From contig CACJXQ010000009.1 of the NCBI GenBank assembly GCA_902597385.1, positions 1 to 58,764 of the forward strand: a stretch of DNA of 58,764 bases, written 5' to 3'. The translations under genes and the position numbers were made by a program. Source of the stretch: an uncultured Pseudomonadota bacterium (GTDB lineage: Bacteria > Pseudomonadota > Gammaproteobacteria > Ga0077536). Under the pieces are notes generated by a model that searched no databases, was not told the DNA's origin, and saw only the letters and a program-made list of their open reading frames with translations. Shown here one piece after another: positions 41,638 through 56,545 of the stretch (position 1 is the first letter of the stretch; each line of letters opens with the position of its first letter).

Positions 41638-42477
41638 ATGCTAGTTCGAATCCTCAATCCAAAATTTAATTTAGACGCTTTTGCAGAAATAATGGATTTT
41701 CTTATAAAAAATGCACGACTTATTTTTGAAATGACCAGAGATAATTTGACTAGCAGGTACAGCGGTCAGTTTTTAGGAAGCTTGTGGATAATCATTCACC
41801 CCTTGGCACTGACGTTTCTTTACCTTTTTGTTTTTGGCGTCGTGTTTAAGCAGCGTATAGGCGGAACTACGGAAATGCCCCTGGACTATACTGCCTATAT
41901 ACTTTCAGGTTTGATACCTTGGTTTACATTTCAAACTGCGATGAACACAGCGGTGGTAAGCATTGTCAGCAATGCCCCTTTGGTCAAGCAGTTTATCTTT
42001 CCCTTAGAGGTTCTCCCGATTAGAGAAGCTCTTTCGGCTGTAGTGATATGGTTGGTTGGCATAGCCGCCACCCTCATTTACATTGGTGCATCTCAAACCA
42101 CAGCGATGCTTACTTGGCTGCTCTTGCCTATAACGCTTTTTTTTCAATTCCTAGCCATGGTTGGTGTGGCATTTTTATTGAGCGCTGTGGCGGTTTTTTT
42201 CAAAGATGCGAAGGATATAGTCGGAGTATTTTGTTTGATTGCAATATTTTTGATGCCAATAGTTTATTTACCTAATATGGTGCCAGGAGTCTTTAGATAT
42301 ATCCTTTGGGCCAATCCTTTTACTTATATGGTGTGGGTCTACCAGGATATAATTTACTATGGGAGGATGGAGCACCCCATCGCCTGGGTGATCTTTTTCC
42401 TTGGTTCCCTATTAATATTTGTTATCGGTTACCGATTTTTCAGAAAGGCTAGTTCGACGTTCGGGGGCATTTTGTGA
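41638..42477 (+). CDS. Polysaccharide ABC exporter permease (Wzm/KpsM-like)
   Basis: A 279-residue ABC-2 permease with six hydrophobic segments. An amphipathic N-terminus 'LIFEMTRDNLTSRYSGQFLG' precedes 'SLWIIIHPLALTFLYLFVFG', matching the interface helix of O-antigen transporters. The C-terminal end has 'ILWANPFTYMVWVYQDIIYY', common in Wzm proteins. With the ATPase that overlaps it by 4 nt it would export an undecaprenyl-linked polysaccharide through the inner membrane. It is the first gene of the polysaccharide locus. Confidence 0.9.
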   Translation: MLVRILNPKFNLDAFAEIMDFLIKNARLIFEMTRDNLTSRYSGQFLGSLWIIIHPLALTFLYLFVFGVVFKQRIGGTTEMPLDYTAYILSGLIPWFTFQTAMNTAVVSIVSNAPLVKQFIFPLEVLPIREALSAVVIWLVGIAATLIYIGASQTTAMLTWLLLPITLFFQFLAMVGVAFLLSAVAVFFKDAKDIVGVFCLIAIFLMPIVYLPNMVPGVFRYILWANPFTYMVWVYQDIIYYGRMEHPIAWVIFFLGSLLIFVIGYRFFRKASSTFGGIL

Positions 42478-44219
42478 CTGAAAAAAGTGTGATAGAGGTG
42501 ACAGACCTCTCTAAAGGCTACCCTATATATTCCAAGCCTACTCATATACTTAAGGAATTGGTTTTTGGCGGCGTAAGGCATGACACCTTCTGGGCGCTTC
42601 GGGATGTTTCGTTTACGGTCAAGGAAGGGCAGCGGGTAGGTATAATCGGGCCTAATGGCGCAGGAAAGAGTACCTTACTTAGAATTATTGCTGGGAACCT
42701 TAAAGCAAGTTCCGGATCTTTGAAAGTCAATGGTAATGTTTCAGCCTTATTAAGTTTGGTTCCAGCTTGGAACTTAGAGCAAACTGGAGTGGAGAATATA
42801 AGATTCAACCTTCTTTTGCGAGGATGTCAAGCAAAAGAGATTGGGACTCTAACGGATGAAATAAAAGCTTTTGCCGAATTAGGTAATTTCATTGATCAGC
42901 CGGTTAAGACTTACAGTGCTGGGATGAGTGCTCGCTTGTCTTTTGCGATAGCTACATCTGTAATTCCTGAGATTTTGATTGTAGACGAAGTGCTTGGGGC
43001 TGGTGACGGATATTTTGCCGGAAAAGCCGCTCAACGAATGCGAGAGTTTTGCGAACGAGGAAAATGCTTACTTTTTGTTAGTCATAGTCCTGCCGCCGTT
43101 CAGCAGATGTGTGATACCGTCATTTGGATGGAAAACGGTAGTATACGTTTACATGGAGAAGCAGGTTACGTCTTGAACCAGTACGAGCTTGATTATCGAG
43201 CCAGCGAAGATGAGCAAACTAGGGCGTACCATAAGGAGCTAGCAAACGACAGTAAGACCATTGCAGCTCCTGAGGACCTGAGCGACACCACTTTCTTACG
43301 TTTCCGTGTGACCCCGAGAGAGACGAATAGTTTCATAGAAACTCATTATGTTAGATCTATAATGGTGCGAGGTATAAGGGAGGAGGCTATTTCAGTGTCC
43401 TTGGAGGTGGGGGAAGATTCTGATAAAGCAGAAGCTTGGCTACAGCTTGCTGGTTGCGAGTGGGGTAGATTGCATGAACGCTCGGGCCAAACAACGCGGA
43501 TCTTATCCCGTTCTACGGGCAAAAAGTATGGGGGGGAGTTTTTAGTCAAAATCGCAGATTCCAATCGAAAATCCTATAATTTAGAAATTTGCCTAGAATC
43601 TGAATCGTCAAATGAAAAACTTTCTGTAGAATTATTAGACATGACAGAGGGGGTTTGGAAACCATTAGCGTGTTCTCGAGAGCAAAATACTATAGCGAAG
43701 GATACTTTGATTTTTGAGGGTAGTGCGAACATGCCTGATCGTACTGTCCTATATGAGGTACAACAAAAAGTAGTCAAAGAACACAAACCTACAGCAGAAA
43801 TTTTAGAGGTGCTTTTATTAGTTGAAGATGAACAGAAGGCTATAATTGCCGAGAATACCCCTTTTGAGATTGCAGTAAGAGTAAAGTTTAATAAAGTAGT
43901 CGAACTAGCCGACGTGGGTATAAAGATTACTCGTTCAGATGGTGTCTATGTCTTTTGGCAATCCTCTGGTTTAAGTGGAGGAAATATGGAAAATCCAGTC
44001 GGAGAATATTTGGTCCGGTTTAAATTTGATAAAAATATTTTAGGCGCAGGAGAATACTCGGTTAACACGCATGTTTCGAATGGCTGGAAATTTCCGGAGA
44101 ACTATCCCTACAGCCAAATTTATGCGCGAACGGTGGGAACTTTAGGGTTTACTGTATCAACAGAGAGGGATTTAGATTTTGGTGTTTTAAATGTTCGTGT
44201 TCCGGTGGTCATTGAATGA
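42474..44219 (+). CDS. Polysaccharide ABC exporter ATPase (Wzt-like) with extended C-terminus
   Basis: A 581-residue Wzt-type protein. The ATPase (1-250) has Walker A 'GIIGPNGAGKSTLLRIIAGN', the signature as 'YSAGMSARLSFAIAT', Walker B 'ILIVDEVLGAGD' and the switch His in 'LFVSHSPAAVQQM'. Residues about 265-430 form an extra beta-rich region, and about 435-580 a Wzt C-terminal carbohydrate-binding-like domain ('FEIAVRVKFNKVVELADVGI', 'EYLVRFKFDKNILGAGEYSV'). Classic Wzt is about 430 residues with one such domain. The C-terminal domain of Wzt recognises the finished chain end. The GTG start overlaps the permease stop, and the 3' end overlaps the methyltransferase (ATGA). Confidence 0.9.
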   Translation: MTEKSVIEVTDLSKGYPIYSKPTHILKELVFGGVRHDTFWALRDVSFTVKEGQRVGIIGPNGAGKSTLLRIIAGNLKASSGSLKVNGNVSALLSLVPAWNLEQTGVENIRFNLLLRGCQAKEIGTLTDEIKAFAELGNFIDQPVKTYSAGMSARLSFAIATSVIPEILIVDEVLGAGDGYFAGKAAQRMREFCERGKCLLFVSHSPAAVQQMCDTVIWMENGSIRLHGEAGYVLNQYELDYRASEDEQTRAYHKELANDSKTIAAPEDLSDTTFLRFRVTPRETNSFIETHYVRSIMVRGIREEAISVSLEVGEDSDKAEAWLQLAGCEWGRLHERSGQTTRILSRSTGKKYGGEFLVKIADSNRKSYNLEICLESESSNEKLSVELLDMTEGVWKPLACSREQNTIAKDTLIFEGSANMPDRTVLYEVQQKVVKEHKPTAEILEVLLLVEDEQKAIIAENTPFEIAVRVKFNKVVELADVGIKITRSDGVYVFWQSSGLSGGNMENPVGEYLVRFKFDKNILGAGEYSVNTHVSNGWKFPENYPYSQIYARTVGTLGFTVSTERDLDFGVLNVRVPVVIE

Positions 44220-45128: not shown

Positions 45129-46058
45129 ATGGATGAATACTTAATTAATCTAAGACATTTTGCAATGAAACACACTGAATATGTTCATAAAACTTCTGCT
45201 CATTATTCGAAGCAATGGGGCCAAGATTTAGATTTTAAAACGTTTATAAAGAAAAACCCTGAGGCCGCCGCAGTAATGCCAGGGCGATTGCTCCCTTGGC
45301 CTAGTCTAATTGATAATATTCGGCGAAAAGCTGCCATCACAAAGACCAGTGTGTACGATGCGGCGTGTGGATTTGGTGATGTTTTTGTTCAGCTGTCAAT
45401 TGATCCTTGTCCACCCTATTTAGAATATATAGGAGTCGATCTCCATGATGGTTTGACGACGCTTGAAAATCATGTCCAGGCCACCTTTCAACAGGGCGAC
45501 ATAACAGAGAAAATTTTCTCGGAAGAGCGTTTTGATTACGTGATATGTCGTGCTGCATTACATCACACACCCCAGCCAAGAGAGACTTTTAGAACACTTG
45601 TAACTCAGCTAGCGCCGGGAGGGACGATTGCATTCTCTTGTTATAATAAAAAGTCTCCCATGCGTGAAGCCTCCGATGATGCGTTGAGAAGCAAAATTGT
45701 CCCCATGGAAGCTGATCAGGCCTTTGGTATCGCTCGTCAATTCAGTATCTTGGGTAAGGATTTACAAAATACTGATGGAAAAATTCAAATCTCAGATGAC
45801 TTGCCATTTCTGGGAATCGAAGCAGGGACTTATGGAGTACAAGAATTCATTTACAGGTATTTTTTAAAATGCTGGTATAATCCAAACTATTCCGAAGATC
45901 ACTCCGATATTGTTAATTTTGACTGGTATCATCCACCTTTTGCTTACAGATATGATTTAGATGAAGTGGTTGACTGGATAGATGATTGCGGCTTGAAATT
46001 GGTTAGGACTGCGACCATTGAAGCCCAGCATTATCTTGAAGCAGAGAAGGGAAAGTAA
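45129..46058 (+). CDS. SAM-dependent methyltransferase, copy 1 of a local paralog pair
   Basis: A 309-residue protein with motif I 'SVYDAACGFGDVFVQLS', the acidic residue in 'YIGVDLHDGL' and 'FDYVICRAALHHTPQPRETF' as motif IV. Its C-terminal third is shared with the methyltransferase at 54751: 'KKSPMREASDDALRSKI', 'EFIYRYFLKCWYNP' and 'FDWYHPPFAYRYDLDEVVDW' align with 'KKAPMREFADDFIRDKI', 'RFLYHFFLKCFWND' and 'YDWYHPQLCSRHTEGEIESW'. The K-[SA]-P-M-R-E and D-W-Y-H-P blocks are therefore useful marks of the subfamily. The substrate is probably a sugar of the local polysaccharide. A 184-nt spacer with AT-rich promoter-like sequence precedes it. Confidence 0.8.
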   Translation: MDEYLINLRHFAMKHTEYVHKTSAHYSKQWGQDLDFKTFIKKNPEAAAVMPGRLLPWPSLIDNIRRKAAITKTSVYDAACGFGDVFVQLSIDPCPPYLEYIGVDLHDGLTTLENHVQATFQQGDITEKIFSEERFDYVICRAALHHTPQPRETFRTLVTQLAPGGTIAFSCYNKKSPMREASDDALRSKIVPMEADQAFGIARQFSILGKDLQNTDGKIQISDDLPFLGIEAGTYGVQEFIYRYFLKCWYNPNYSEDHSDIVNFDWYHPPFAYRYDLDEVVDWIDDCGLKLVRTATIEAQHYLEAEKGK

Positions 46059-46201: not shown

Positions 46202-47602
46202 TTGATTGGATATTTGAAGTCCCTCAAGCTATCAGATCGTTTCGGAAGATTTTTTTCCCGGCAGGCGCGAGAGGCAGCTAGAAGGCAGACTAAGATAGCT
46301 GTTTTAGAACATCATCTGCGTCTTTTTGGATTGCAAGAGTTTGAACGTGTTCAGATTCAATACGGAGGCATTTGGCGAGATGTTGATGCCGAATTAAAGG
46401 GGGGTAATGTAGTAGTCATACTTGAACCCTCTACTCCCTTTCTTAAAGAGGGTGGGATAGGGTTTAAGAAAGAACCTCCAGGGGTATTGAAGTTGGACAA
46501 GAACACCTCTTGGGGGGCTCTGAGAACCTTACACGAAACTCTGACTTTTTATCATAGCAAAGCTGAAGGTATTGCGCGCACTGAGGCGGGTTCTCTAGCG
46601 TGGATAAAGTTTAGGGTATTAGGGGGAACACTTTTTGTTTTAGGGAGTGATGTTGCGGGTGATTTAATTAGATATAGGCAAGGTGATCCAGCGGCGGCTA
46701 GAAAAAAAAATAAGGCAGGGGCACTATGGGGGTTCAATTCAGAGAGGCCGGTGTATCTTTTTGAAGATCAATTAAAGGATCATCAGCCGGGCGAACGAGC
46801 GGCTGATGTGATAGCGATGGCTTTAGCTACAGAAATATCTACAGCCCTCGGTCAGCCGTTAAGCCCTTTATTACCTGGTGATGCTCCCGGTGCCATAGTG
46901 ATTACCGGTGACGATGATCAGGCTGAGCTAGAAAAGTATGAAGAGCAGTTAGAGATCCTGGGGAATCTACCTATCACCTACTTTCTCCATCCAAAAACAC
47001 GCCATACCCAAGAAACTATTAGAAGTATGTTGGGATCCTCTGAAATAGACCTTGGGTTACACCCAGATGCTCTTGAATCACCAGCTCGATATGGGAGGCT
47101 TTTGAGAAAACAAGTTGCTTGGTTTGAAGCGCTTGTTGGGCTTAAACCAGAATCTATACGTAATCATGGTTTTCTAAATGATGGATATTGGGGCCATCTA
47201 AGATTTTGGAAAAAAGAAGGGGTCAAATTCAGCTCAAATTTACCCGGATTGAATGGTCGTATACTCAACGGCTCTCTTTTGCCCGCGCGCGTGGCAATAG
47301 ATAATGAGCTAACAGACCATTGGTCGATTCTCACAGCTATAGGAGATGGTGTGGTATTCGTGCTAAAACTTAACGACAAACAAAGCCACGAGTTAATTCA
47401 AAATTTAGCTAGCTCCATTAGAGCATCTGGCATACCAGGGCTTATAGTAGTTAACCTACACCCTCAAAATATTTCCGAAACACGGTCGATGCATTTGGCC
47501 CTGAAGGAATTGGTCGGTGAAGGTTTTCTGGCTTGGAATATGTCGCAATGTCTAAACTGGTTTCTTGCACGAGATTCCCAGGGGGTTGAAAAAAATGACT
47601 GA
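46202..47602 (+). CDS. Polysaccharide deacetylase-like (NodB-fold) protein with unknown N-terminal domain
   Basis: A 466-residue protein. The C-terminal part (about 225-450) looks like a NodB-type barrel: 'IVITGDDDQAELEKYEEQL' (metal Asp pair), 'LPITYFLHP', 'EIDLGLHPDA', 'ESIRNHGFLND' and 'GLIVVNLHPQN' stand in the order of the five deacetylase motifs. The N-terminal 200 residues contain 'LFVLGSDVAGDLIRYRQGDP', which I do not recognise with certainty; it may be an amidotransferase-like or ThuA-like fold. No signal peptide is seen, so a cytoplasmic role on sugar precursors is more likely than cell-wall editing. The start is TTG at 46202; no ATG fits. The 3' end overlaps the next gene by 8 nt. 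Confidence 0.55.
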   Translation: MIGYLKSLKLSDRFGRFFSRQAREAARRQTKIAVLEHHLRLFGLQEFERVQIQYGGIWRDVDAELKGGNVVVILEPSTPFLKEGGIGFKKEPPGVLKLDKNTSWGALRTLHETLTFYHSKAEGIARTEAGSLAWIKFRVLGGTLFVLGSDVAGDLIRYRQGDPAAARKKNKAGALWGFNSERPVYLFEDQLKDHQPGERAADVIAMALATEISTALGQPLSPLLPGDAPGAIVITGDDDQAELEKYEEQLEILGNLPITYFLHPKTRHTQETIRSMLGSSEIDLGLHPDALESPARYGRLLRKQVAWFEALVGLKPESIRNHGFLNDGYWGHLRFWKKEGVKFSSNLPGLNGRILNGSLLPARVAIDNELTDHWSILTAIGDGVVFVLKLNDKQSHELIQNLASSIRASGIPGLIVVNLHPQNISETRSMHLALKELVGEGFLAWNMSQCLNWFLARDSQGVEKND

Positions 47603-52984: not shown

Positions 52985-54712
52985 GTGTCATCGCCTAGTA
53001 ATAAGATGCACACCCGTTCGGCCGGGAATGTAGAAATTAGTCAACGAAATAGGGATTGGATTAAAGAATTTAAGATCCGGAATGGTCGGCCACCCAGGGT
53101 GCTTCATATCGGTAATATAGCTAACAATGCTTATAATAATTCTAAACTAATGAATCAGGCTGGACTTGTTTCAGATGTGATATGTTACGACTATTTTCAT
53201 ATAATGGGATGCCCAGAGTGGGAGGATGCAGATTTTGAAGTCGGAGAAATCGATCACTATAATCCAGATTGGAGGAAGGTGGACCTCAATAATTTCGAAA
53301 GGCCCGATTGGTTTATTCAGGGCGACATACTAAGTTGTTTGGAGATTTTAAGAAGCAAATGGGAAAAACCTCCAATCGATCCTCTGATAAGAAGAGGGTT
53401 CCGATTTCCGTTTTATCTTAATATAGATTGGTTTTCTTCAATAGTTTCTTTCCTGCGTGATAAGGTTTTAGGTGGATTTATACGGATCGTTTCTTTCCTG
53501 CGTGATAGCCTTCTAGGGAGGTGGTCCTTACCGATTGCTTCCCTTTCCCGTCTTAGAGTTTTAGGTAGGAACTATAAGAGTTTAAGTATTTTTATACGGA
53601 TCGCTTCTTTCCCGATTGGTAGCATTTTAGTAGGGTGTATAAAGATCGCTTCCTTCTTTCGCAATACATTTTCTCTTTCAAGATTTGCAAGTTTCGTTTC
53701 TCGCAAATATAGATCATTTTCAATGACCAAGTTCTCTCGAAGGTTTGCGAAAGAGTTCCCATCTCGCGTTGATAAAGTTACGCCGAAGGATTATCAAGAT
53801 TATTTATACATTTTGCCACACTGGAAAAATATCCTTAGGCATTATGACTTTATAATTGGATACTCTACAGATGGTATTTTACCAATGTTCTGTGAGGTGC
53901 CATTCTTTGCTTTTGAGCACGGCACCTTACGGGACATTCCAGATCAAGAAGACAGATCGGGTCGATTAACATCGTTAGCCTATCGTCTTGCGAAACACGT
54001 TTTTGTCACTAATTTTGATTGCGTGGAGAAAGCCAAGATTCTTGCGCCTAGAAGATATTCTTTAATTAATCATCCTTTTGATGAAGATGCCGCTTTTAGT
54101 ATAGATGGTGTAGAAGAATTAAGAACGCGACTTCTTTCCGATCTCAATTGCGAATTCTTATTTTTCCATCCGACCCGACAAGATTGGACAAAAGGCAATC
54201 CAATGGCGGATAAACAAAACGACATATTCTTAGAGGCTTTTGTTGCGCTTAGAAAAGCGGGAATAGATGTTGGAGTTGTCTGTTGTAACTGGGGTAAAGA
54301 TGTCGCGGCGACGAAGGAATTCCTTCGAGCAAAGGGTTGCGATCCCTATGTGGCTTGGGTAGAGCCCATGCCTTTATTGCCATTTCAAAGGATGTGTCTC
54401 GCGTCTGATGTTATGGCAGATCAGTTTAAACTAGGAGCTTTCGGAGGAATAACCTTTAAGGCCATGGCAGTCGGTTGTCCCATTATTACTTATTTAGACG
54501 AAGAAATGTTGTTACGACAATATCCCCAATGCCCTCCAGTTTTGAATTGTGCTACTGTTGAAGATATCATTGCCGCGGTAAGGTCTTTGCTCGATCAACC
54601 TGAGAAGCGACGAAAGCTTTCAGCAGATTCTCGCTCATGGATGAAACATTACCATAGCAAGGCGAAGACTTTAGATATACAAATTGACCAATTTAGATTG
54701 GCATTGAGTTAA
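52985..54712 (+). CDS. GT-B glycosyltransferase-like protein with internal tandem repeats, copy 2
   Basis: A 575-residue protein. The N-terminal domain (about 35-145) has 'RVLHIGNIANNAYNNSKLMN'. Residues 153 to about 245 are an inserted block of five degenerate units starting I-[VA]-S-[FL] ('IVSFLRDKVLGGFIR', 'IVSFLRDSLLGRW', 'IASLSRLRVLG', 'IASFPIGSILVGCIK', 'IASFFRNTF'), hydrophobic and basic. The rest resumes a GT-B fold with 'IIGYSTDGILPMFCEVPFFA', 'FFHPTRQDWTKGNPMADKQN', 'LASDVMADQFKLGAFGGITF' and 'KAMAVGCPIITYLDEE'. Start GTG 52985 has GAGG 12 nt upstream; ATG 53006 is an alternative without one. Probable paralog of the gene at 47595. Confidence 0.72.
   Translation: MSSPSNKMHTRSAGNVEISQRNRDWIKEFKIRNGRPPRVLHIGNIANNAYNNSKLMNQAGLVSDVICYDYFHIMGCPEWEDADFEVGEIDHYNPDWRKVDLNNFERPDWFIQGDILSCLEILRSKWEKPPIDPLIRRGFRFPFYLNIDWFSSIVSFLRDKVLGGFIRIVSFLRDSLLGRWSLPIASLSRLRVLGRNYKSLSIFIRIASFPIGSILVGCIKIASFFRNTFSLSRFASFVSRKYRSFSMTKFSRRFAKEFPSRVDKVTPKDYQDYLYILPHWKNILRHYDFIIGYSTDGILPMFCEVPFFAFEHGTLRDIPDQEDRSGRLTSLAYRLAKHVFVTNFDCVEKAKILAPRRYSLINHPFDEDAAFSIDGVEELRTRLLSDLNCEFLFFHPTRQDWTKGNPMADKQNDIFLEAFVALRKAGIDVGVVCCNWGKDVAATKEFLRAKGCDPYVAWVEPMPLLPFQRMCLASDVMADQFKLGAFGGITFKAMAVGCPIITYLDEEMLLRQYPQCPPVLNCATVEDIIAAVRSLLDQPEKRRKLSADSRSWMKHYHSKAKTLDIQIDQFRLALS
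53441..53734 (+). repeat. Degenerate tandem repeats inside a glycosyltransferase gene
   Basis: Units start at 53441, 53486, 53534, 53600 and 53645, spaced 45, 48, 66 and 45 bp, always in frame. The 19 bases GTTTCTTTCCTGCGTGATA are identical at 53444-53462 and 53489-53507. A second repeat, TTTATACGGATCG followed by [TC]TTCTTTCC, occurs at 53477-53498 and 53591-53612 with one mismatch in 22. The exact identity across these stretches, in a gene with no constraint to keep it, indicates recent slippage or unequal exchange. Confidence 0.85.
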
Positions 54713-54750: not shown

Positions 54751-55632
54751 ATGACAGAAAGAAAACAGACCTTGAAAAGCTTCAAAGATAAATGGGAACA
54801 AAACCCCTCTTTGGCCTTTGAGCACACCCTTGAAGAGGGTTCCGAACTGTTTAACTGGATCTTAAATAGGAATGGATTTGAAGGAAAATCTGAGCTCTCC
54901 AATTGGCTCTCAAAAAAGACTAAGATATTGGACGCTGGTTGTGGGAATGGTAGGGTGACTGCCCTCTTGCGGGCCTACTCGATGGAGTCAGCCGAGATTG
55001 TCGGATTTGATCTGACTTCTTCTGAAGTTGCTAAATCAAACTTATCAGGTTTAGATAACATATCTATTCACAAAAAAGATCTGTTAGAAGATTTATCGGA
55101 TCTGGGGCGGTTTGATTTAATATACTGTCAGGAAGTGTTGCACCATACTACTGATCCTGAGAGAGCCTTTATAAATTTGACTGAATCTCTTGCTGATAAT
55201 GGTGAAATTGCGATTTACGTCTATAAGAAAAAAGCTCCCATGCGTGAGTTTGCAGATGACTTTATAAGAGATAAGATTTCAGAGCTTTCTTATGATAAAG
55301 CCCAAAATGAAATGCAAGGTCTGGCCAAGCTTGGTAAGAACCTTTCTGAATTAGATGCCAAGTTTTATTCTCCGGCGATTGATTTGCTGGGAATTCCCGA
55401 GGGCGAGTACGATGTACAGCGATTTCTGTATCATTTTTTTCTTAAGTGTTTTTGGAACGATGCGTTGAGTGATAAAGAAAACACTGACATAAACTATGAT
55501 TGGTATCATCCTCAGCTATGTTCCCGCCATACAGAGGGAGAAATAGAGTCTTGGTTCAAAGATGCAAAATTAAAAATTATTCATCGACATGTTGACCATT
55601 ACGGAATTACATATAGGGGATTAAAACAATAA
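54751..55632 (+). CDS. SAM-dependent methyltransferase, copy 2 of a local paralog pair
   Basis: A 293-residue methyltransferase. Motif I is 'KILDAGCGNGRVTALLRAYS', the acidic residue follows in 'IVGFDLTSSEVAKS', and motif IV is 'FDLIYCQEVLHHTTDPERAF'. The C-terminal third matches the protein at 45129 in several blocks (K-[KS]-x-P-M-R-E, F-F-L-K-C, D-W-Y-H-P). It lies 38 nt after the glycosyltransferase and 31 nt before the epimerase, suggesting one transcript. Its substrate is likely a sugar of the polysaccharide. Confidence 0.82.
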   Translation: MTERKQTLKSFKDKWEQNPSLAFEHTLEEGSELFNWILNRNGFEGKSELSNWLSKKTKILDAGCGNGRVTALLRAYSMESAEIVGFDLTSSEVAKSNLSGLDNISIHKKDLLEDLSDLGRFDLIYCQEVLHHTTDPERAFINLTESLADNGEIAIYVYKKKAPMREFADDFIRDKISELSYDKAQNEMQGLAKLGKNLSELDAKFYSPAIDLLGIPEGEYDVQRFLYHFFLKCFWNDALSDKENTDINYDWYHPQLCSRHTEGEIESWFKDAKLKIIHRHVDHYGITYRGLKQ

Positions 55633-55663: not shown

Positions 55664-56545
55664 ATGAAGATGCTAATCGTGGGGTCCAATGGTTTTATTG
55701 GGTGTTCCCTTGCCGCCAAATTGAAAAATCTAGGTTTTCAGGTTATCGAGATGAGTTCCACTGATGGTTCCGGGATCGATCCAGTTACTGGCCTTTTGCC
55801 TGTGGACTTTTCTTTTCCAAAAGGAGTCTCGACTGTGATTTATCTTGCTCAATCTCCCTTGGCCTCAAAAATCATTAAGGGTGCCTCTCACGCATTAAGC
55901 GTTAATTGTGTTAGTGCTGTTAGACTAGCGTCGATGGCCGTTCATTCCAAGGTTCAAAGGTTTATATACCTCTCTACTGGAAATGTATATGCTCCGTCTT
56001 TTGATAAGCTCTGTGTGGACTCCCCATTGCGCAGAGATAACTTATATTCATTGAGTAAAGTCCATGCTGAAGAAGCACTAACTCTTTTTAGAAATCAATG
56101 TGAGATGATAGTAGTCAGACCATTTGGGGTTTTTGGAGACGGGCAAAAAGAGCGGCTAATTCCAAATCTGATCAAGAAAGTACGAATGAATGAAATAATC
56201 TCCTTGCACCCTAGTCCTAGCGAAATGGCCCGTAAACCTAACGAAACTGACGGCCTAAGAATTTCTTTGATTCACATTGAGGATGCGGTGGATATTTTAG
56301 CGACCATAGCCATTAAGGGTGGAGTCAATTACCTTAATCTTGCCGGACCTGAAATCTCTAGTATTCAGTCATTAGCTCAAAAAATATCCAGATTGTCAGG
56401 AAAGGAGTCCAGTTTTATCATCGAGGAAGACTGTCGTGAAACAGACTATATAGCTGATTTCCAGTCTGCGAAGGAAATATTGGGGCGGGACTTTATATCA
56501 ATCGAAACAGGTCTTACTTCTCTGATTGATTCATCAGTCGCTTGA
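55664..56545 (+). CDS. NAD-dependent epimerase/dehydratase
   Basis: A 293-residue extended-SDR protein. The nucleotide loop is G7-x2-G10-x2-G13 ('MLIVGSNGFIGCSLAAKL') and the catalytic pair is Y128-x3-K132 ('NLYSLSKVHAEEAL'). 'RFIYLSTGNVYAP' supplies the conserved Ser/Thr. The usual substrate is an NDP-sugar; C4 or C3/C5 epimerisation, dehydration or reduction cannot be separated by eye. The 3' end overlaps the convergent asparagine-synthase gene by 32 nt. Confidence 0.85.
   Translation: MKMLIVGSNGFIGCSLAAKLKNLGFQVIEMSSTDGSGIDPVTGLLPVDFSFPKGVSTVIYLAQSPLASKIIKGASHALSVNCVSAVRLASMAVHSKVQRFIYLSTGNVYAPSFDKLCVDSPLRRDNLYSLSKVHAEEALTLFRNQCEMIVVRPFGVFGDGQKERLIPNLIKKVRMNEIISLHPSPSEMARKPNETDGLRISLIHIEDAVDILATIAIKGGVNYLNLAGPEISSIQSLAQKISRLSGKESSFIIEEDCRETDYIADFQSAKEILGRDFISIETGLTSLIDSSVA

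Follow-up and report, generated by a model that had tools for sequence, protein, structure and literature searches.

The locus

Here, we describe a glycosyltransferase gene in a 58,764-nt stretch of DNA (hereafter, the window) from contig CACJXQ010000009.1 of an uncultured Pseudomonadota bacterium. The gene occupies positions 52985–54712 of the forward strand, begins with a GTG start codon, and encodes a protein of 575 aa, which we assign to the GT-B, GT4-like glycosyltransferases from its open reading frame, the match of a homolog profile to MshA, its AlphaFold2 model, and its structure matches. Its N-domain holds a long insert of variable sequence (53324–53752, forward strand; residues 114–256), delimited with the alignment of homologs, its composition, and control segments, and within this insert lies a block of degenerate repeats.

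The surrounding genes, all on the same strand, include an ABC-2 type membrane protein of an exporter (41638–42477; PF01061) and an ABC ATPase with a Wzt C-terminal domain (42474–44219; PF00005 and PF14524), to which an ATPase of the G422 genome is 45% identical over 237 aa. A methyltransferase (54751–55632) adjoins the glycosyltransferase and is followed by an NAD-dependent epimerase/dehydratase (55664–56545). Both have relatives near the glycosyltransferase in other genomes, the methyltransferase in G028, G422, and G015, and the epimerase in L008, G015, and G028. The cluster also contains a second glycosyltransferase at 47565, an aminotransferase, a sulfotransferase, and methyltransferases. 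This content fits an exported surface polysaccharide, and the enzyme at 52985–54712 probably builds a surface sugar chain.

Two further observations concern the cluster. The methyltransferases at 45129–46058 and 54751–55632 match the same relatives, which sit near the glycosyltransferase elsewhere. Just before the second glycosyltransferase, positions 46202–47602 encode a 466-aa protein without a Pfam match at E 1e-5; by eye, it resembles a polysaccharide deacetylase-type protein.

Fold of the enzyme

The preliminary description of this DNA, made from the sequence alone, had proposed a glycosyltransferase with a GT-B fold, and three comparisons agree. A profile of four homologs searched against the PDB matched MshA (E 8.9e-6); Foldseek, given an AlphaFold2 model built from three sequences, also returned MshA (3c4q, E 1.6e-10); and VIA aligned the model with TreT (6zn1) over 320 residues with a Z score of 19.7 and an rmsd of 4.7. 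With two Rossmann-like domains in the model and matches to solved GT-B enzymes, the window protein is predicted to have this fold.

The three-sequence model has a mean pLDDT of 54.7, with the C-domain mostly confident and the N-domain partly low, and a two-sequence model has a mean of 44.1. The model places the insert in the N-domain, between a helix ending near residue 126 and a helix-strand pair at 267–292. Both models draw the insert largely as helix, which is only a hint in a region where pLDDT is below 40 in either model and mostly 26–39.

The repeat block

The insert includes five degenerate in-frame units of about 45 nt (15 residues), each opening with I[VA]S and starting at residues 153, 168, 184, 206, and 221. 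These are, on the forward strand, unit 1 (53441–53485; IVSFLRDKVLGGFIR); unit 2 (53486–53533; IVSFLRDSLLGRWSLP), with 28 of 36 nt the same as unit 1; a longer unit 3 (53534–53599; IASLSRLRVLGRNYKSLSIFIR); unit 4 (53600–53644; IASFPIGSILVGCIK), with 26 of 36 nt the same as unit 2; and a diverged unit 5 (53645–53686; IASFFRNTFSLSRF). Successive units are spaced 15, 16, 22, and 15 aa apart, so that the frame is kept and the spacing is irregular. The block had originally been drawn from 53441 to 53734; its repeats extend to 53686, and the tail beyond (53687–53734, forward strand; ASFVSRKYRSFSMTKF) is a doubtful sixth unit, with weak resemblance to the repeat.

At the DNA level, the protein, its coordinates, and two direct repeats are as first claimed: GTTTCTTTCCTGCGTGATA stands at 53444–53462 and again at 53489–53507 (19/19 identity), and TTTATACGGATCG[T/C]TTCTTTCC at about 53477 and about 53591 (21/22 identity). 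The window holds the 20-nt core of the latter twice, where 0.01 occurrences are expected with up to three mismatches allowed. Without gaps, the block matches itself best over 57 nt, shifted by 114 nt, with a score of 24.5. Codon shuffles gave maxima of 13.0 (300 shuffles) and 15.5 (150 shuffles), and the protein-preserving controls, codon resampling and codon permutation, gave 21.5 and 20.5 (300 each). Since the self-match lies above the protein-preserving controls, DNA was copied and not merely similar residues selected. The in-frame growth that had been proposed is thus a DNA duplication, beyond any resemblance of the proteins.

That this growth happened "recently" was overstated. Pairwise identity between units over 36 nt is 47–78% and the longest exact repeat in the block is 19 nt, so the growth is not very recent. 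For the same reason an assembly artefact at 53441–53612, which the preliminary description had entertained, is unlikely in the extreme: the contig belongs to a draft assembly (72.7% complete, 66 contigs), but the copies are diverged, unlike a duplication made by an assembler, no long exact repeat is present, and the frame is open throughout.

Tandem Repeats Finder did not report the block, even at a score of 30, since its units have drifted apart in sequence and stand at uneven intervals; a regular tandem array is ruled out. So is a dispersed repeat or mobile micro-element, as the rest of the draft genome has no second copy of the block (best other match 25 nt, E 0.08). Rfam gave no match in the window. 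The glycosyltransferase at 47565 resembles the present protein only in its C-terminal half, and, as had been noted, no such block was reported in it.

The insert across the family

We compared six homologs (G015, G028, L008, G422a, G422b, and G154), five of them at 34–40% identity and one, G154, more distant, with insert limits set by eye. In an alignment of six sequences (A2), the N-terminal signature (GNxANNA, D-Y-x-H-x-MGCPEWE, and RPxWFxQG) and the part beyond about residue 258 are conserved, and a poorly conserved stretch separates the two. All seven proteins, the window protein included, have an insert at this one position, with a length of 143 aa in the window protein, 135 in G015, 140 in G028, 165 in L008, 112 in G422a, 101 in G422b, and 95 in G154. 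By this comparison, the insert of the window protein is not unusually long; it falls within the family range.

The net charge of the insert is +19 in the window protein, +20 in G015, +14 in G028, +24 in L008, −1 in G422a, and +8 in both G422b and G154; it is therefore basic in five of the six homologs (+8 to +24). Outside the insert, the seven proteins are mostly acidic, with net charges of −16 to +4. As a control, we took 507 overlapping 143-aa segments from the other open reading frames of the window, and none reached +19 (maximum +14).

DNA self-similarity above that of shuffles was seen in none of the six homolog inserts (0/6). Repeats as a family trait are ruled out; of the seven proteins, only that of the window is repeated. 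Because the homologs carry the insert at the same place without DNA repeats, we read the insert as an old family feature that predates the repeats and that duplication remodelled locally in the window's lineage. The block as a whole is then not the recent addition that it had been taken for, as stretches of 95–165 aa and mostly similar composition stand there in the homologs. The preliminary description had held against its own reading the case that homologs show the block as an ordinary conserved domain of constant length. The presence of a homologous stretch at the same place comes close to this case, but neither its sequence nor its length is constant.

It could be argued that the repeats arose by neutral slippage in a linker that is partly disordered, tolerates change, and does nothing but link. 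The varying length and sequence of the insert, its low model confidence, and the irregular spacing of the units would all suit such a linker; it would have no need, however, for so hydrophobic and basic a composition, and the basic charge kept in most homologs is far above that of other proteins in the window. We consider this account unlikely.

The family is rare and patchy. A homolog is found in 3 of 36 genomes from its own taxonomic family (the window's own genome included), in 2 of 369 genomes of a class sample, and in 3 of 398 genomes of a phylum sample, one of these being a partial C-domain match. A pattern scan of genome contigs found one Phycisphaeraceae contig with a homolog. None of the genomes searched was that of a close strain carrying the gene. 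Viral contigs and phages gave no relative, and the plasmid search yielded one weak C-domain match.

Two of the related loci have an organization of their own. The G422 genome has two diverged copies of the glycosyltransferase in tandem (L029:6252–9524), one with a neutral insert that includes a strong amphipathic segment and the other with a basic insert. The G154 homolog (L018:1–2970, minus strand) is the first part of a 1515-aa open frame, which seems to run on beyond it, with another half that resembles a glycosyltransferase and a part that resembles a methyltransferase.

A membrane-docking interpretation

Our preferred reading, to which we give a probability of about 0.6, is that the insert is a fast-evolving membrane-docking element, of which the window's version carries repeats, in a rare GT-B, GT4-like family of surface-glycan clusters. 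We infer membrane binding from composition only: this is a basic, hydrophobic segment of the N-domain, with a net charge of +19 over 143 aa and the same position in the homologs. The block had been described as both basic and hydrophobic, which the composition of the insert bears out. Against docking stands the lack of net charge in the insert of G422a; in favor, however, that same insert contains GFLMRILKRLIRLVR, the strongest amphipathic segment of all seven, with a hydrophobic moment of 0.63.

The enzyme would lie at the inner membrane, on its inner face, together with its lipid-linked acceptor and the ABC exporter; the insert lies in the N-domain, the acceptor side. Its Arg and Lys residues would bind anionic head groups, and its Ile, Val, Phe, and Leu residues would sit in the membrane interface. 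Because only the general composition of the insert would matter, duplication or deletion of units would be tolerated and repeats would be left behind. Peripheral glycosyltransferases have docking elements that evolve fast, and here internal duplication appears to have reshaped one of them, with other family members similar in length and mostly in charge without repeats. Overall, the original observation is confirmed and its interpretation partly supported: the repeats are a genuine, though not very recent, internal duplication inside a family-wide insert that probably docks to the membrane.

The suggestion that the units form amphipathic helices fares less evenly. Among helical angles, the periodicity of the block is strongest at 116 degrees, a height that 17 of 2000 shuffles attained, and that of units 1–2 at 94 degrees (103 of 2000), with segments picked by the analyst and no correction of the counts for this choice. 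The models draw helix; however, the periodicity is weak and the modelled helix is of low confidence. Residues 201–219, with a Kyte-Doolittle value of 1.87, could be a membrane-inserted rather than an interfacial segment.

The insert might instead dock to a protein, such as the exporter or the neighboring methyltransferase, and not mainly bind lipid. Such a role would agree with the exporter genes in the cluster and with the neighbors common to the homologs, but the sequence of the insert is hardly kept among homologs with these same neighbors, whereas a specific interface would usually be conserved, and what the insert does keep is its charge. We think protein docking rather unlikely.

GT-B enzymes do use membrane elements, given the precedents of PglH, MG517, and MGD1, and in PglH and MGD1 these belong to the N-domain. 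The membrane-attached "ruler helix" of PglH from Campylobacter jejuni keeps count of sugars (PMC5792488). A GT-B fold, a lipid-linked acceptor, and a basic, membrane-attaching N-domain element, amphipathic in PglH and perhaps here, are features of PglH (PMC5792488) that are predicted for the present enzyme; unlike PglH, which has one helix with a counting role, the present enzyme has a repeated element of about 143 aa with no counting role shown. According to excerpts from the work on MG517 and MGD1 (PMC6506492, PMC12022483), MG517 has an amphipathic helix as the membrane element of a GT-B enzyme, and Arabidopsis MGD1, a GT-B galactolipid synthase, binds the membrane through a long N-domain region of alternating hydrophobic and hydrophilic character, with much of the N-domain (180–244) missing from the structure. 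The window protein likewise has a long N-domain region with predicted membrane binding, but its enzyme family and acceptor differ, and the excerpts make no mention of tandem repeats for MGD1. We found no literature report of repeat expansion in a GT-B membrane loop, which is weak evidence of absence.

Repeats are known from Helicobacter pylori, whose glycosyltransferases have C-terminal heptad repeats with 21-nt units that vary in number between isolates, and whose fucosyltransferase has amphipathic anchoring helices too (PMC4202792, PMC3858298). Like these lipopolysaccharide (LPS) glycosyltransferases, the window protein is a glycan enzyme with tandem in-frame repeats; unlike theirs, which are C-terminal and of 21 nt, its repeats are internal, of about 45 nt, and diverged. 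The precedent (PMC3858298, PMC4202792) and the location of in-frame repeats within a surface-glycan enzyme invite the idea that members of the population differ in unit number and that this number tunes the length or structure of the glycan. However, the near-identical consecutive units of H. pylori are not seen here, where the units are diverged (47–78%), the spacing is uneven, and the longest exact repeat has 19 nt, and the total insert length lies within the range of the non-repetitive homologs. We regard this idea as very improbable. We have equally little expectation that serial duplication of a membrane-binding unit tunes the tightness or reach of the enzyme at the membrane, with unit number altering the surface glycan in natural populations. 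Length variation may occur, but the diverged and irregularly spaced units look unlike hypervariable arrays of the H. pylori heptad kind.

Phase variation, another early suggestion, finds no support: the reading frame survives when a whole 45-nt unit is gained or lost, and on/off switching is therefore not to be expected. The repeat in this probable docking loop is real but a modest curiosity, and switching of surface structure is unsupported; the significance would be greater if unit number varied and affected the glycan.

The donor site

Enzymes of family GT4 usually carry an EX7E motif at the donor site. The aligned place in A2 (54419–54496; residues 479–504) reads DQFKLGAFGGITFKAMAVG, with Ala485 and Lys492 instead of the two Glu residues, and we therefore label the protein GT4-like only. 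Most homologs retain Lys492, G422b alone having Glu there, and by this alignment the donor site of the family may be altered. For Pfam Glycos_transf_1, the window protein scores 13.9 bits, below the gathering cutoff of 26.4, and the best A2 member has an E value of 8.3e-7. With MshA, TreT, BshA, and PimA, which are GT-B enzymes of GT4 type, it shares the fold and the C-terminal donor domain; it differs from them in the 95–165-aa variable insert of its family and, from GT4 enzymes as generally known, in the Lys at the usual place of the second Glu.
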